64,000 nt of DNA from Bacteroidales bacterium. Lineage in GTDB: Bacteria; Bacteroidota; Bacteroidia; Bacteroidales; FEN-979. Below the pieces are notes generated by a model. That model made no database searches, was not told the DNA's origin, and saw only the letters and a program-made list of their open reading frames with translations. Within the stretch, counting starts at the first letter, position 1. Each line of letters begins with the position of its first letter. The stretch spans positions 1 through 64,000 of the forward strand of contig JANXZO010000051.1 of the NCBI GenBank assembly GCA_025355465.1, in the 5' to 3' direction. Positions 3,114 through 8,384 of the stretch are shown here, piece after piece. A program made the translations under genes and the position numbers.

Positions 3114-4643
3114 ATGAACCTGGAGCGATATTTTAGGAGATTCCGCGATCAAATCATCGGGCAGGAGCAGGTGTATCAAACCCCCTACGGCCGTAAAAAG
3201 ATGATCTATGCCGACTGGGTGGCCAGCGGCCGGCTATACCGGCCAATTGAGGAGAAGATCTCTTCGGTCATCGGACCTTTTGTAGGGAATACCCACACGG
3301 GTACCAGCGAAAGCGGCCGGTTGATGACCGAGGCTTACCATCTTGCCCGACGGAAGATCAAGGAGCATGTAAATGCCGGTGCCGGGGATGTGATCCTCAC
3401 CACAGGCTTCGGCATGACCGGCGCCGTGGTGAAATTCCAGCGTATCCTGGGATTGAAAGGGTGCGGTGAAATTTCACGGCACGAATGTCTCAAAGCGAAG
3501 GAGCGCCCCGTTGTGTTCATCACCCACATGGAGCACCATTCAAACCATACCTCCTGGTATGAGACCGCCGCCGATGTGGTCATCATCGAACCGGGAAAAG
3601 ATCTGCTGGTGGATCTGAACAACCTGGAGGCCGCTTTAAAAAAGTACCGGAACCGGAAAACAAAGATCGGCTCCTTTACCTCCTGCTCAAACGTTACCGG
3701 AATCCGGACCCCTTATCATGAGATGGCCCGACTGATGCACGAATATGGCGGGTATGCCTTCATCGACTTTGCAGCTTCCGCCCCTTACGACGACATCAAC
3801 ATGCACCCTTCCGATCCGCTGGAGCGGCTGGATGCCATCTTCTTCTCTCCCCATAAATTTCTGGGCGGACCCGGCTCTTCGGGTGTGCTGATCTTCAATT
3901 CTTCCCTCTACCACAGCAAAGTTCCCGATCAACCGGGCGGCGGAACCGTTGACTGGACCAACCGCTGGGGTGAATACAAATTTGTGGACGATATCGAAGC
4001 CCGCGAGGATGGTGGAACGCCCGGGTTTCTGCAGGCAATCCGAACTGCCCTGGCCATCGAACTGAAGAACCAGATGGGCGTCGAGAACATTCACCTCCGG
4101 GAACAGGAGCTGATCACAATCGCCTTTGCCGGGTTAAAGAAGATCCCCGGCCTTCACATTCTGGCCGACCAAAACGAGGAGCGCCTGGGAGTCATCTCAT
4201 TCTACCTCGACACCCTCCATTACAACCTGGTGGTGAGGATGCTGAGTGACCGTTTTGGCATTCAGGTAAGGGGAGGCTGTGTATGCGCCGGCACCTACGG
4301 TCATTATCTGCTCAATGTAAGCCAGGAAAAATCCAGGGCCATCACCGATAAGATAAACCACGGTGACCTTTCAGAAAAACCGGGATGGGTGCGGCTCTCC
4401 CTTCACCCGACCATGACGGATGGTGAATTGTCGTTCATCCTGGATGCCATCCGCCAGATTGAACTTCATCAACGCGAGTGGTCTGCCGATTATACCTATG
4501 TAAAGCAAACCAACGAGTTTCAGCCGCGGACCGGGGCCATGGGCCTGCTCCATGCCAGCTCCTTTCTCGAACTCGAACCTCCCCATCCCGCCGAAAGAGC
4601 ACTCGGCACCCTGGCGGGTTTGCCATTCCATCATCATGAATGA
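3114..4643 (+). CDS. Class V aminotransferase (cysteine-desulfurase-like PLP enzyme)
   Basis: The 509-residue protein has the fold-type I signature. The segment IDFAASAPY at about 218-226 carries the cofactor-ring aspartate, and SPHKFLGGPGSSGVL carries the Schiff-base lysine near residue 248. HMEHHSNHTSWYE and FVGNTHTGTSESGR are further conserved motifs. A loop RGGCVCAGTYGH near 386-396 contains Cys residues in the position where desulfurases hold the persulfide Cys. It is longer than IscS/SufS (about 400), with a C-terminal extension of about 90 residues. It probably forms an operon with the NifX-like gene. A sulfur-mobilising role is inferred; other class V reactions are possible. Confidence 0.82.
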   Translation: MNLERYFRRFRDQIIGQEQVYQTPYGRKKMIYADWVASGRLYRPIEEKISSVIGPFVGNTHTGTSESGRLMTEAYHLARRKIKEHVNAGAGDVILTTGFGMTGAVVKFQRILGLKGCGEISRHECLKAKERPVVFITHMEHHSNHTSWYETAADVVIIEPGKDLLVDLNNLEAALKKYRNRKTKIGSFTSCSNVTGIRTPYHEMARLMHEYGGYAFIDFAASAPYDDINMHPSDPLERLDAIFFSPHKFLGGPGSSGVLIFNSSLYHSKVPDQPGGGTVDWTNRWGEYKFVDDIEAREDGGTPGFLQAIRTALAIELKNQMGVENIHLREQELITIAFAGLKKIPGLHILADQNEERLGVISFYLDTLHYNLVVRMLSDRFGIQVRGGCVCAGTYGHYLLNVSQEKSRAITDKINHGDLSEKPGWVRLSLHPTMTDGELSFILDAIRQIELHQREWSADYTYVKQTNEFQPRTGAMGLLHASSFLELEPPHPAERALGTLAGLPFHHHE

Positions 4644-4681: not shown

Positions 4682-4918
4682 TTAACAGGCACAGGGCCGG
4701 TTTACAAAAAAGTATCCCAGAAATCCGCCAAAAGCAACACTGGCATAAGGATTACTTGTGATCGCACAACTTCCCGAAGCACACCCCACGTAATAATAGT
4801 AAAGGTAACCTCCAATACCCCCCAGAACGATAAAAAGGACTGGTTTCCAGAAATCCCAGGTTTTGAGTCTCTCCTTAACAGGCATCGGGGGTGTTTTTGT
4901 TTTGCAAGAATCAGCCAT
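4682..4918 (-). CDS. DUF6132-like small membrane protein
   Basis: The product has 78 residues from the ATG at 4918 (MADSCKTK); an upstream TTG lies inside the promoter. Two hydrophobic helices flank a Cys-bearing loop (YYYYVGCASGSCAITSNPY), and the C-terminus ends in RPCAC. This pattern matches what I recall as DUF6132. It is divergent from the methyltransferase operon and shares a symmetrical promoter region with it. Cys-rich membrane proteins of this type often accompany rhodanese and thiol genes; its exact role is unknown. Confidence 0.7.
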   Translation of the reverse strand: MADSCKTKTPPMPVKERLKTWDFWKPVLFIVLGGIGGYLYYYYVGCASGSCAITSNPYASVAFGGFLGYFFVNRPCAC

Positions 4919-4928
4919 GACTTTTTTT

Positions 4929-5000
4929 GGCAAAGGTAAAAATTATTTCGATTTGGTGATATTTATGCGATTTAATATTTAAATAATATTTACCTTTGCC
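4929..5000. promoter_or_regulatory. Face-to-face promoters built from a 20-bp inverted repeat
   Basis: GGCAAAGGTAAAAATTATTT (4929-4948) and AAATAATATTTACCTTTGCC (4981-5000) are inverted copies with 19 of 20 matches, 32 bases apart. Each carries a Bacteroidota -7 box TACCTTTG: one on the minus strand (4931-4938) for the DUF6132 gene, the other on the plus strand (4991-4998) for the methyltransferase operon. The symmetry suggests that one regulator governs both directions. Confidence 0.6.
4956..4974. promoter_or_regulatory. Candidate shared operator GTGATATTTATGCGATTTA
   Basis: This 19-base element lies 17 bases upstream of the minus-strand -7 box for the DUF6132 gene. A 16/19 match, GTGCTATTTAGGCGATTGA, occurs at 8901-8919 at almost the same distance (18 bases) from the -7 box of the rhodanese gene. 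The shared spacing supports one regulator at the -33 region. Confidence 0.5.
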
Positions 5001-5051: not shown

Positions 5052-5681
5052 ATGGAAATTAAAGAGATAAACACCCGGTACAGCAAACTGGCCGATTCGG
5101 AATGCTGCCTTTCATGTGGCGGAGCGATCAATTATGCCCGGCCGGTTGCCGGTGAGGTGTGCGTGGATCTTGGCAGCGGCCGCGGAAATGATGTGGTAAG
5201 AATGGCCGGCCTTGTCGGAGAAACAGGTTTCGTTTACGGCATCGATATCTCCGACGGGATGCTTGAAAAGGCAAGGGCGAACGCAAAAAAATTCGGTGTC
5301 GCCAACGCCGGTTTTGTTCGCTGTGAACTCGAAAAAATTGAACTTCCCGACCGGGTTGCCGACCTGGTCATCTCCAATTGCACCCTCAACCATGCTGCCG
5401 ATAAGCAGTCGGTATGGAACGAGATCTACCGTATCCTTAAAAAGGGCGGGCGGTTTGTTGTAAGCGACATTTATGCCGTCGCCCCGGTTGCGGACGAATA
5501 CCGTAACGATCCTGTGGCTGTGGCTGAGTGCTGGGCCGGTGCAGTTACCCGTGACGAATATATGCATCACCTGGAAAAAGCCGGATTCGGCCTGGTCGAA
5601 ATCCTGGAGGAGTCGGCTCCTTATGCTAAAGGTCATGCCGAGGTAGCCAGTTTTACCATTGCCGGAATTAAAAAACAGTAA
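5052..5681 (+). CDS. ArsM-like SAM-dependent methyltransferase
   Basis: This 209-residue class I methyltransferase has motif I DLGSGRGND at 39-47, the acidic ribose-binding end of strand 2 (YGIDISDGML) and a Cys-rich start (CCLSCGG, Cys 18, 19 and 22). ISNCTLNHAADK and AECWAGAVTRDEY place Cys where arsenite methyltransferases keep their two arsenic-binding Cys (about 114 and 164). The protein is shorter than typical ArsM (about 280 or more) and lacks a C-terminal extension. It begins an operon with the small Cys peptide (47 bases later) and the radical SAM maturase. It could methylate arsenite, another thiophilic metal(loid), or the peptide itself. Confidence 0.75.
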   Translation: MEIKEINTRYSKLADSECCLSCGGAINYARPVAGEVCVDLGSGRGNDVVRMAGLVGETGFVYGIDISDGMLEKARANAKKFGVANAGFVRCELEKIELPDRVADLVISNCTLNHAADKQSVWNEIYRILKKGGRFVVSDIYAVAPVADEYRNDPVAVAECWAGAVTRDEYMHHLEKAGFGLVEILEESAPYAKGHAEVASFTIAGIKKQ

Positions 5682-5728
5682 CTTTGAAATAAATCCAGAT
5701 TCATTAATAAATAATCCAACCCTGAACC

Positions 5729-5836
5729 ATGAAAAACCTCGTAAAGAAAAAGATGGTCGTTAAAAAAGCGCCCGTAAAAAAAGTAGCGCAGTGCTGTGCA
5801 AAAACTTCGAAAACCGTGGTAGGCTGCCACGATTAG
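5729..5836 (+). CDS. 35-residue Lys/Cys-rich peptide, putative RiPP precursor
   Basis: An ATG at 5729 opens a 35-codon frame ending at TAG 5834-5836. The first 20 residues are strongly basic (MKNLVKKKMVVKKAPVKKVA) with no Cys. The last 15 hold CC (22-23), a small/Thr-rich segment (AKTSKTVVG) and a final CHD (Cys 33). Basic leader plus short Cys-bearing core, 13 bases before a radical SAM/SPASM gene with an N-terminal recognition-like domain, is the classical layout of a radical-SAM-modified peptide. The modification (thioether or other Cys crosslink) and function are not visible. I have no family name for it. Confidence 0.65.
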   Translation: MKNLVKKKMVVKKAPVKKVAQCCAKTSKTVVGCHD

Positions 5837-5849
5837 GCGGTAAAGATCA

Positions 5850-7190
5850 ATGATCTATTCCCGACACAACATATTTTCGAAGATCGCCGGATCGGAGAAT
5901 TTTTTCATCGTCAACCTCCTTCACGGAAGCGCCGATATTCTTAATTCTGCCGAAGGGAAAATGGTGAGCGATCTGCTCGAAGGCCGCGAAATTCCGGGTG
6001 AATTTCGCGAAAGCCTCACAGCACAGGGATACCTGGCCGATGAAAGGGAGGAGGAACTCCTCTACCGGAGCAGATACCTCGACTTCACCGACGAGCGCGA
6101 CGAAGAGGAAGTACAACTCTTTTTCGTTCCGAACTATAGTTGCAATTTTGCCTGCAGTTACTGCTATCAGGATGAATATGCCAATCCTGCGCAGGAGCTC
6201 ACCACCGGGATCATCGACGCTTTTTTCGATTACATCCGCCGCGAATTTGCAGGGCGGAAAAAATATGTGACCGTTTTCGGAGGCGAGCCGCTGCTGAATT
6301 CCGCCCGGCAAAAAGCCCTGATCACCTATCTGATCAAAAGGGCCAATGAAGCTGGTCTGGAGCTCTGCTTTGTAACCAACGGCCATTCGCTAGAGGAGTA
6401 TACCTCCATATTGAAGACAGCCAGTATCCGTGAAATCCAGGTTACCCTCGACGGCACGGGACCGGTACACAACATGCGTCGCTTTCTCAAGGGAGGCGGA
6501 GCAACCTTCGACAAGATCGTCGAAGGGATCGACGCCTGCCTGGAACAACAGCTGCCAGTCAACCTCCGGATGGTGATCGACCGTGAAAATATTGAAAGCC
6601 TGCCGGACCTCGCGCAGTTTGCAATCGGTAAAGGGTGGACCGGCAATGCGCTTTTTAAGACCCAGCTCGGCCGTAACTACGAGCTGCACCATTGCCAGGC
6701 AGATGCCGGAAAACTATTCAGCCGGATCTCCCTTTACGAATCCGTTTATGAGCTTGTAAAGAAACATCCTCACATCCCCGAATTTTATAAACCCGCCTAC
6801 TCTGTTTCGAAATTCATTTTTGAAAACGGCAGACTCCCCGATCCCCTCTTCGATGCCTGTCCCGCCTGCAAAACCGAATGGGCCTTCGACTATACGGGAC
6901 AGATCTATTCCTGCACAGCCACCGTTGGAAAACCCGGTGAGTCGCTGGGAACATTTTATCCGGCGGTTACCCGCAGGGATGAACTGATCGGCGTTTGGGA
7001 AAACCGCGATGTGACGAACCTTTCCGAATGCAGCGGCTGTAACCTGCAGCTGGCATGTGGCGGCGGATGCGGATCGGTGGCAAAGAATGCCTCCGGCACC
7101 ATCGGCTCCACCGACTGCCGCCCGGTGAAGGAGTTGCTGGAACTCGGGTTTTCAGCCTATTTTGACCAAAAACAACAACCTGATAGATGA
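5850..7190 (+). CDS. Radical SAM/SPASM peptide maturase
   Basis: The 446-residue protein has an N-terminal region (1-85, including FIVNLLHGSADILNSAEGKM) resembling the peptide-binding winged helix of RiPP maturases. The radical SAM motif is CNFACSYC (Cys 98, 102, 105), followed by the GGEPLLN SAM-binding segment and QVTLDG. The C-terminal SPASM region holds about seven to eight Cys (CPAC at 337-340, YSC, CSGC, then ACGGGC and DC) for auxiliary [4Fe-4S] clusters. SPASM enzymes typically modify small peptides. It follows the Cys peptide by 13 bases and overlaps the thioredoxin fusion by ATGA, so peptide, maturase and thiol protein are probably cotranscribed. Confidence 0.85.
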   Translation: MIYSRHNIFSKIAGSENFFIVNLLHGSADILNSAEGKMVSDLLEGREIPGEFRESLTAQGYLADEREEELLYRSRYLDFTDERDEEEVQLFFVPNYSCNFACSYCYQDEYANPAQELTTGIIDAFFDYIRREFAGRKKYVTVFGGEPLLNSARQKALITYLIKRANEAGLELCFVTNGHSLEEYTSILKTASIREIQVTLDGTGPVHNMRRFLKGGGATFDKIVEGIDACLEQQLPVNLRMVIDRENIESLPDLAQFAIGKGWTGNALFKTQLGRNYELHHCQADAGKLFSRISLYESVYELVKKHPHIPEFYKPAYSVSKFIFENGRLPDPLFDACPACKTEWAFDYTGQIYSCTATVGKPGESLGTFYPAVTRRDELIGVWENRDVTNLSECSGCNLQLACGGGCGSVAKNASGTIGSTDCRPVKELLELGFSAYFDQKQQPDR

Positions 7191-7963
7191 AAGAGATAAC
7201 ATCCGCCGAATTCGAGACCGAAGTCCTTGCCGGCGGCAAGGTAGTGCTCGATTTCTATTCAACCGAATGCCCGCCCTGCGAAGCGGTAGCCCCCAAATTC
7301 GAAGGGCTGGCAAAATTGTATGGCAACGACATCAAATTTCTGAAGATATTCAGGCAGCAGAACAGGGAGCTGGCCACAACCCTGGGGGTGAAATCCTCCA
7401 CAACATTGCTGTTTTTCGACGGCGGCGTTCAATCTCCCGTCACCCTTTCGGGCGGCATTAAGCGGAGCGACATCATCCGTCAGCTCGACACGATGCTGCC
7501 GGGCGGACAGGTATCCACCACCCATGAGGTTTCAAACTATCCCGGCTTCATTGAACCGCAACCGGGTTACATGCTATCCCACAACATGTCGGAGCAGCCC
7601 AAACTTTGCGGAACCGTGTACAAGGTGGCTGTGGATGTTTCCATGATTGATCTCGTAAAGAAAGAGGTGGTGGTGATCGGCAGCGGTAATTCAGCCGTTG
7701 AAGAAGCCGATTTCATCAGCCGGTTTGCCAGCAAAATTACCATGGTTCATCAGTTTGATGCCTTAACAGCCAATAAACAGGCCAAGGAGAAACTCTTCGC
7801 CAATCCGAAAATCGACGTGCTCTTCTCGCATGAACCCCGCTCCTTCGTTCGCGATGGAAACATGATGATCACCGAAGTCGAAGACCTAAAAACCAAAACA
7901 CGTACCCGTTTGTCCGGCGACGGAACCATTGCCGCCATCGCCATCGCAAAAGAGTTGAATTAA
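7187..7963 (+). CDS. Thioredoxin fused to a remnant thioredoxin reductase
   Basis: Residues 1-103 form a thioredoxin domain with active site ECPPCE (Cys 28 and 31), CPPC rather than the usual CGPC. From about residue 104 the sequence follows thioredoxin reductase, but with pieces absent. GGQVSTTHEVSNYPGF is present; the preceding FAD GxGxxG strand is replaced by thioredoxin; the CxTC redox pair region is skipped; the NADPH part (VVVIGSGNSAVEEADFISRF) is present; the C-terminal FAD GD motif is skipped; and the last helix (DGTIAAIAIAKEL) is present. All joins keep frame. The reductase cannot be active as such. The thioredoxin part may reduce disulfides for the Cys peptide system. Confidence 0.8.
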   Translation: MKEITSAEFETEVLAGGKVVLDFYSTECPPCEAVAPKFEGLAKLYGNDIKFLKIFRQQNRELATTLGVKSSTTLLFFDGGVQSPVTLSGGIKRSDIIRQLDTMLPGGQVSTTHEVSNYPGFIEPQPGYMLSHNMSEQPKLCGTVYKVAVDVSMIDLVKKEVVVIGSGNSAVEEADFISRFASKITMVHQFDALTANKQAKEKLFANPKIDVLFSHEPRSFVRDGNMMITEVEDLKTKTRTRLSGDGTIAAIAIAKELN

Positions 7964-7982: not shown

Positions 7983-8384
7983 ATGACTGCAAACCAAATG
8001 ATCATCGAACAGCTAAGTCCTTTTAACGTTCCCGTAACCGTTGAAAAACTGATCGCCGCCGCCACTGAAAGAGAGTGGCAGAACCCGGCCCTTCACAACC
8101 TTCAGCAATCGCTGGCCAAAGCGGGTAAAGAGGTTCGCCCGGTACAGGTTATCGAGATCTGCAAACCCGAATACTCAGGCCGGATGCTCGAACTGAGCGA
8201 CGAAAGGGTCGTATCAGTCATGATGCCCTGCCGCATTTCGGTCTATGAAAAAGCAGACGGAAAAACCTATGTCGCCCTGCTGAACATGGAGGCGATGGCA
8301 GGCGGATTGCCGTCAACGATTGCTTCGGCCGTGCAGGGCGCCTCCGACGAAACCTTCGCGATCGTTAAATCGGTAATAGGATAA
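7983..8384 (+). CDS. DUF302 domain protein
   Basis: This 133-residue soluble protein has the DUF302 pattern: an N-terminal VEKLIAAATEREW helix, a central VIEICKPEYSGRML strand region with a conserved Cys, MMPCRISVYEKADGKTYVAL, and a C-terminal helix. DUF302 proteins bind small ligands or metals and are frequent beside thiol and metal genes. It follows the thioredoxin fusion by 19 bases and is probably in the same transcript. Exact function is unknown. Confidence 0.8.
   Translation: MTANQMIIEQLSPFNVPVTVEKLIAAATEREWQNPALHNLQQSLAKAGKEVRPVQVIEICKPEYSGRMLELSDERVVSVMMPCRISVYEKADGKTYVALLNMEAMAGGLPSTIASAVQGASDETFAIVKSVIG

Follow-up and report, generated by a model that had tools for sequence, protein, structure and literature searches.

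A Putative Radical SAM RiPP Cassette of Bacteroidota Pairing a Short Cysteine Peptide with an ArsM-Type Methyltransferase and a Thioredoxin–Thioredoxin Reductase Fusion

Introduction

The SCIFF ranthipeptides (TIGR03974), in which a radical S-adenosylmethionine (SAM)/SPASM maturase, CteB, is paired with a short, conserved cysteine peptide, CteA, are the nearest functional analogue of the locus considered here, although their reported role is signaling. Excerpts from two reviews describe SCIFF peptides as widespread in Clostridia and made by CteB-type maturases, and cite one report that links them to quorum sensing (PMC8326336, PMC8102284). Here, we analyze a 64,000-nucleotide stretch of DNA from a Bacteroidales bacterium (the window; assembly GCA_025355465.1, contig JANXZO010000051.1, positions 1 to 64,000), in which four adjacent genes at positions 5052–7963 encode an ArsM-type methyltransferase, a 35-residue peptide, a radical SAM/SPASM maturase, and a thioredoxin joined to the remnant of a thioredoxin reductase. 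A sequence-only reading of the window had proposed that these genes constitute a system for a ribosomally synthesized and post-translationally modified peptide (RiPP), with no export gene among the four; the gene layout and the co-occurrence described below uphold that proposal, and the cassette is very probably of RiPP nature. To our knowledge, radical SAM peptides that serve inside the cell have rarely been explained, and in a compact, co-inherited set of this kind the modifying enzymes (methyltransferase and thiol reductase) hint at the chemistry of the product.

Comparison with described systems sets the locus apart. The window maturase shares the radical SAM and SPASM domains with CteB, its nearest relative by sequence and fold, yet it scores 70 bits against a cut-off of 425 for the SCIFF model. 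SCIFF peptides carry six cysteines in about 45 residues, whereas three cysteines are invariant here, in peptides mostly of 31–39 residues that end in GCHD, match no known precursor model, and are accompanied by an additional methyltransferase and thioredoxin–thioredoxin reductase. The best NCBIfam models for the window maturase, CefB (NF038107; 147.1 bits, cut-off 600) and TIGR04463 (134.6 bits, cut-off 525), are matched by all 56 maturases scanned; in contrast to the Cys-every-fifth pattern of CefA, the peptide has no five-residue cysteine repeat and its cysteines are spaced CC-x9-C. PapB ranthipeptide maturases (NF047865) likewise share the radical SAM and SPASM domains but give 114.3 bits (cut-off 340), and the CX3D spacing that characterizes their class is absent from the core. 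For the CbpA/CbpB system (TIGR04163), the maturase reaches 55.6 bits of a required 375. It falls far under the cut-off of all 25 models listed, none of which names it, and neither peptide nor maturase finds a home in the known precursor or maturase models (SCIFF, CbpA-type) with which a comparison had been suggested.

The letters of the peptide core were not found in the open-licence literature, and an earlier mention in other literature is possible. Within that literature, excerpts of a selenoprotein review name arsenite methyltransferase, radical SAM, and RiPP, but separately, and excerpts of a survey of Bacteroidales RiPPs describe no such gene set.

Results and Discussion

Four Genes Form One Co-Inherited Set

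The cassette has the following features, with coordinates given in the window:

5052..5681, + strand: short ArsM-type SAM methyltransferase, 209 aa; C22, C110, and C160 invariant, C18–C19 nearly so
5729..5836, + strand: precursor peptide, 35 aa, MKNLVKKKMVVKKAPVKKVAQCCAKTSKTVVGCHD; relatives mostly begin with MK[SNT]L[IV]KK, followed by a variable Lys-rich linker and a conserved C-terminal core
5786..5833, + strand: presumed core, AQCCAKTSKTVVGCHD; pattern A-[QL]-C-C-A-K-x-S-x4-G-C-H-D across 80 unique peptides, with putative cleavage from the leader
5850..7190, + strand: radical SAM/SPASM peptide maturase, 446 aa, assigned from model scores, cysteines, and fold
5850..6098, + strand: N-terminal domain of the maturase, strand-strand-strand-helix-helix-helix in the predicted structure; putatively like a RiPP recognition element (RRE; PqqD-like), named from its topology
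6141..6164, + strand: radical SAM motif C98-x3-C102-x2-C105, invariant in 56/56 aligned maturases
6858..7118, + strand: SPASM region with C337, C340, C355, C394, C397, C403, C407, and C423, all invariant (56/56)
7187..7963, + strand: thioredoxin (CPPC) with thioredoxin reductase remnant, 258 aa; NAD(P) domain kept, flavin adenine dinucleotide (FAD) sites and CATC lost

The four frames, the ATGA overlap of maturase and thioredoxin gene (7187–7190), and the 13-base gap between peptide and maturase (5837–5849) all lie exactly where the sequence-only reading had placed them.

Relatives of the maturase were sought in one genome per species across 84,980 species. A relative is encoded on 245 stretches, and the best 80 of these, where named by group, belong to Bacteroidales, other Bacteroidetes, Ignavibacteria, or Kapaibacterium, a few being labeled only "uncultured bacterium." Together with loci from other searches, these 80 gave a set of 110 loci; counts quoted over 81 loci exclude locus L001 and the 29 short loci L003–L031, many of whose peptides are identical to those of longer loci. 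Searches of genomes covered the window's order (393 genomes) and its phylum (a draw of 395 genomes).

Among the 393 order genomes, the peptide profile was matched in 48, a maturase of at least 49% identity in 48, and a short ArsM-type methyltransferase of at least 48% identity in 47, and the search for co-occurrence proposed earlier returned all three together in 47 genomes; the identity cut-offs (48%–49%) were placed by eye at gaps in the match lists, and the figures ignore phylogeny. The exceptions are G037, which carries the peptide alone, and G263, where a maturase fragment runs from base 11 of its contig. Distant maturase matches of 27%–33% identity in eight further order genomes were excluded from these counts. 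In the phylum draw, five genomes besides that of the window match the peptide with E values under 1e-10. In all five, the four genes lie in close proximity, with the fusion preceding the methyltransferase in two; G552, a member of this group, is apparently the genome of locus L109. Weaker peptide matches in the same draw (G436, G586, G659, G731, and G732; E values of 9e-4 to 9e-3) were taken as chance, and the stretches read for G436, G731, and G732 contain no cassette gene.

The fourth gene follows the same distribution. From the 47 cassette genomes, 26 were compared with 25 genomes without the cassette, hand-picked from families holding both kinds. A full-length fusion (at least 65% identity over the whole length) is encoded in 25 of the 26 and in none of the 25, the single cassette genome without it being that of the window; the other matches of the fusion query, at 37%–44% identity, align with the reductase portion alone. 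The four genes constitute one set with near-strict co-occurrence.

Arrangements vary at a few loci. At L074, L083, and L085, the maturase and the thioredoxin–thioredoxin reductase stand without an adjoining methyltransferase or whole peptide (in L085, the final part of a peptide frame is visible where the contig begins or ends). Since the same genomes encode an adjacent pair of peptide and methyltransferase at another location, for L083 apparently some 10 kb distant on one contig, the cassette can split into a methyltransferase–peptide half and a maturase–reductase half. Copies of the peptide without a maturase were seen near position 7680 of L132 (a second copy in genome G311) and near position 8340 of L131 (G037), one of them directly before a DUF302 gene; read by eye, the genes around them include DUF302-, OsmC-, Hdr/Qmo-, DsrE-, and TusA-like ones. 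These two copies prompted a search for Hdr/Qmo-like genes as obligate partners, which was abandoned when they occurred in 17/26 genomes with the cassette and 14/25 without.

A Precursor Peptide with a Near-Constant Core

A homologous peptide lies near related maturases in 105 of the 110 loci (76 of 81 without the short loci), as would be expected had the sequence-only reading identified the precursor correctly. Five loci were missed. L068 and L105 lie on contigs that start at or within the maturase, and the genome of L068 is also without a peptide match; the remaining three are the split loci described above. The distance from peptide stop to maturase start ranges from 1 base inside the maturase to 426 bases before it, with a median of 73.

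Among the 80 unique peptides, 78 have an ATG start and are 31–39 residues long; the other two lack one as read (L081, 26 residues, near a contig edge, and L024, 31 residues). N-termini are mostly MK[SNT]L[IV]KK, and all 80 end in A-[Q/L]-C-C-A-K-x-S-x4-G-C-H-D, with three invariant cysteines in CC-x9-C spacing. It is important to note that the constancy of the core is partly by construction, because the strict regular expression used requires CCAK-x6-GCHD; a looser search (CCAK, 2–14 residues, C, up to 6 more residues, stop) again found the peptide in 105/110 loci. The 33 distinct core peptides are encoded by 85 distinct core DNA sequences, with at least two synonymous codons at every invariant position. 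Over 1500 of 3570 sequence pairs, with multiple hits and the tree ignored, the proportion of synonymous differences (pS) in the core is 0.82 and that of nonsynonymous differences (pN) 0.080, a pN/pS of 0.098. The peptide core is under purifying selection, and the 35-codon frame proves to be conserved at the protein level.

The sole Pfam match of the window peptide is a BTK motif below the cut-off (E value 0.017). No NCBIfam family matches it, and a scan of 55 peptides returned no naming NCBIfam model and two single matches with E values of 0.1 and 0.12. Mobile carriers of the peptide were considered and dropped: two pattern matches on viral contigs included no relative, and all 23 plasmid records are below 60% identity, the matches listed reaching at most 29.3%.

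The behavior of the core bears on whether the product might be an ordinary exported RiPP, such as an antimicrobial, with its transporter encoded elsewhere. Antibiotic RiPP cores generally vary, whereas this core is almost invariant across classes, and neither a transporter nor a protease is encoded among the four genes. In a Pfam census of cassette flanks (150 random open reading frames [ORFs] from 374 candidates, with no background set), the 25 families listed out of 105 likewise include neither ABC exporters nor peptidases, although the TauE/SafE sulfite exporter family is listed for 2 of the 150 ORFs. Export would agree with the maturase class, which is that of sactipeptide and ranthipeptide makers; on this evidence, we consider it very improbable. 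An unvarying product, the lack of an exporter, and the tie to a thiol reductase fit a cofactor better than a weapon, and the product is probably intracellular.

A Maturase Related to CteB

Besides the radical SAM and SPASM cysteines, C282 is invariant in the 56 aligned maturases, and with their catalytic cysteines intact the enzymes look active. An AlphaFold2 model of the window maturase has a mean predicted local distance difference test score (pLDDT) of 81, with values below 50 at residues 388–423. Its closest solved folds are CteB (5WGG/5WHY) and then anaerobic sulfatase maturase, in agreement with the sequence search. The topology of the modeled N-terminal domain suggests an RRE.

Kinship with CteB, the nearest solved relative, raises the question of whether the peptide could be a signal or regulator in the manner of SCIFF, with methyltransferase and thioredoxin genes that only tailor or protect it. 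The Clostridial spread of SCIFF, its CteB-type maturases, and its link to quorum sensing, as excerpted from the reviews (PMC8326336, PMC8102284), provide a precedent. Such a role would, however, leave unexplained why the peptide is almost always accompanied by a thiol reductase and an ArsM-type enzyme; moreover, only three cysteines are invariant, the distribution is patchy (47 of 393 order genomes), and the four genes include no exporter. A SCIFF-like regulatory function is thus judged improbable.

Methyltransferase and Thioredoxin Reductase Fusion

The designation of the first gene as an ArsM-like methyltransferase with conserved cysteines is well founded. C22, C110, and C160 are invariant in 46/46 methyltransferases and align with the conserved cysteines of solved ArsM, which there serve as As(III) ligands (in part from PMC9013690), and the 13 best solved folds for the structural model (pLDDT 89) are all arsenite methyltransferases. 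In contrast to ArsM and AS3MT, with which it shares the fold and the three ligand cysteines, the protein is only about 210 residues long and covers the N-terminal ~250 residues of the solved chains, and its best model, the arsenite methyltransferase NF008823, gives 180.8 bits against a cut-off of 263. All 47 order genomes with a member of this short group also have the peptide. An identity gap in the match list, rather than a tree, separates the group (at least 48%) from longer ArsM-like genes (at most 43%). Many related methyltransferases carry a short Cys-rich C-terminal tail (such as CNCQH or CGCGN; for example, L032:2079-2723), which is absent from the window copy.

In relatives, the fusion is a complete thioredoxin–thioredoxin reductase of about 422 residues, with the thioredoxin fused before the reductase. 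The CPPC and CATC redox motifs and the FAD- and NAD(P)-site glycines, all as in described thioredoxins and thioredoxin reductases, are invariant in 26 aligned fusions. The sequence-only reading had placed the frame of a thioredoxin fusion correctly but had before it a deleted copy: relative to its kin, the window protein has three in-frame deletions of 51, 53, and 60 codons, which a by-eye alignment places between short direct repeats. This copy retains its thioredoxin and NAD(P) parts, whereas the FAD sites and the reductase CxxC (CATC) that relatives possess are gone. The deletions reflect either a real loss, yielding a reshaped protein, or a collapse in the assembly.

A Model for the Cassette

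Based on these data, we favor, with somewhat better than even confidence in the reading as a whole, a model in which the cassette represents a new family of radical SAM RiPP, so far seen in Bacteroidota, whose modified-peptide product has a thiol or sulfane-sulfur role. With its RRE-like N-terminal domain, the maturase would bind the conserved MKSL[IV]KK start of the precursor (31–39 residues) and would then introduce at least one crosslink, thioether or other, into the core A-Q-C-C-A-K-x-S-x4-G-C-H-D. The short ArsM-type enzyme may subsequently methylate either one of the three core cysteines or a soft element (As, Se, or sulfane sulfur) that they hold, and the NADPH-dependent thioredoxin–thioredoxin reductase would maintain the peptide and methyltransferase thiols in the reduced state. 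Because the core is near-constant across classes and no exporter is encoded among the four genes, the product would most likely be a cofactor-like thiol carrier in thiol/sulfane-sulfur metabolism. A sulfur or thiol-cofactor role, taken separately, is possible but falls short of even odds. More tentatively still, the mature peptide could act as a coenzyme of ribosomal origin, comparable to glutathione, bacillithiol, or coenzyme M. As a crosslinked trithiol, it would transport sulfane sulfur or a metalloid in the sulfur metabolism of these Bacteroidota, with a dedicated ArsM-type methyltransferase loading or capping it and its own thioredoxin–thioredoxin reductase recycling it.

One precedent comes from AS3MT, the animal ArsM, which according to an excerpted report S-methylates its own cysteines (PMC9013690); a cysteine of the peptide is therefore a thinkable methyltransferase substrate. 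According to the same excerpts, free histones were not methylated by AS3MT, and automethylation rose with glutathione but not with thioredoxin, its reductase, or NADPH by themselves (PMC9013690). These negatives speak against a ready transfer of the automethylation activity to the cassette, and several further observations weigh against the favored model. The product, its crosslinks, and its methylation are all predicted from genes. The window fusion cannot carry out the proposed NADPH-driven reduction as drawn in its own genome, because its reductase part is broken. Second methyltransferase–thioredoxin reductase pairs occur without a peptide or maturase on the fetched stretch (L134:6555-8585 in G262 and L133:1994-5529 in G331), so that these two genes may also function independently of the cassette, and the peptide of G037 occurs alone. 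The sulfur role is suggested by neighboring genes only, and two sulfur-type genes surveyed genome-wide show no association with the cassette (class V aminotransferase/desulfurase, 17/26 versus 16/25; Hdr/Qmo-like, 17/26 versus 14/25). Finally, many of the neighbors are general redox genes, and the surroundings could represent a stress regulon. As a separate observation, the second methyltransferase-like protein of G262 has lost its DLGSGRG SAM motif.

With one small operon, two questions can be put to the test, namely whether a peptide, or an element bound to one, can be a substrate of an ArsM-type enzyme and whether a RiPP serves as a thiol/sulfur coenzyme; the 80 natural precursor variants are available for mapping the requirements of the maturase.

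Arsenic versus Sulfur

The pairing of a vicinal CC and a third cysteine is similar to As(III) sites like the one in ArsD, and together with the invariant ligand cysteines of the methyltransferase and its 13 best folds, it brings arsenic (or selenium) handling into consideration. The trithiol peptide would then present As(III) to the ArsM-type enzyme in place of glutathione, and the thioredoxin–thioredoxin reductase would be the reductant of the methylation cycle, a function for which excerpts of one report cite thioredoxin and thioredoxin reductase as in vitro helpers of AS3MT (PMC9013690). The distribution of arsenic genes argues otherwise. The arsenite exporter Acr3 was found over cut-off in 21/26 genomes with the cassette and in 23/25 without, and in the window's genome it was not found. 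No arsenic family is among the 25 listed of the 105 flank-census families. A separate ArsM-like gene (at most 43% identity) is present in at least 23 of the 47 cassette genomes, so that ordinary arsenic methylation may be served elsewhere, and a plain thiol carrier needs no radical maturase. Arsenic detoxification was lowered as the principal explanation after the Acr3 comparison and the flank census, and arsenic or selenium handling is now considered unlikely.

In the census, thioredoxin- and sulfur-type genes stand out instead: thioredoxin accounts for 19 of the 150 ORFs, the IS1595 zinc ribbon for 12, the AhpC-TSA profile for 10, Crp for 8, OsmC and DUF134 for 6 each, DUF1847 and NifX-type for 5 each, rhodanese and Pyr_redox_2 for 4 each, and Cys/Met PLP for 3. 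The thiophilic metal chemistry into which the surroundings had originally been fitted is possible, but it draws no help from Acr3.

Neighboring Genes

Two small genes recur beside the cassette:

7983..8384, + strand: DUF302 protein, a frequent fifth gene, in 51/81 loci; copies of at least 59% identity in 16/26 cassette genomes versus 0/25 without
4682..4933, − strand: DUF6132-like small protein, in 45/81 loci; a match in 23/26 cassette genomes versus 15/25 without

Because its close copies are confined to cassette genomes in the 26-versus-25 comparison, DUF302 is regarded as an optional fifth gene. DUF6132, which is divergent in the window and co-directional with the maturase in 41 of 44 copies elsewhere, was rejected as a specific part on the same comparison. 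The sequence-only reading had also enlisted NifX-like and rhodanese genes: both DUF proteins are indeed frequent neighbors, with only DUF302 tied to the cassette, but the window's NifX-like and rhodanese proteins each find a counterpart in just 2/81 loci, the window included. Clusters identified by eye place NifX-type genes in 9 and 6 of the 81 loci and rhodanese in 8. The upstream NifX gene (beside the cassette in 2/81 loci, window included) was not retained as a part, nor was the class V aminotransferase/desulfurase, which occurs in 17/26 genomes with the cassette and 16/25 without and adjoins it in 6/81 loci, window included. The window copy of the latter, at 3114–4643, is class V aminotransferase/cysteine-desulfurase-like and partially matches the encapsulin cargo desulfurases (NF041166; 94.7 of 800 bits).

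Clustering of ORFs over the 81 loci, with Pfam applied to one member each, further yielded a second thioredoxin (37 loci), whose representative has a signal-like start by eye, an IS1595-type zinc-ribbon protein (26), a YgaP-type membrane protein (15), a Pyr_redox_2 flavoprotein (14), and DUF1847 (13). Crp/Fnr-type regulators are found in 18/81 loci. The IS1595-type gene (for example, L078:4258-4734) encodes 137–173 residues, or 78 at the contig edge of L099, and is probably too short for a transposase core. It lies on the opposite strand, roughly 0.9–2.5 kb upstream of the maturase, and a look-alike judged by eye diverges from a split methyltransferase–peptide pair (L143:6706-7149); it is perhaps a domesticated transposase acting as a regulator.

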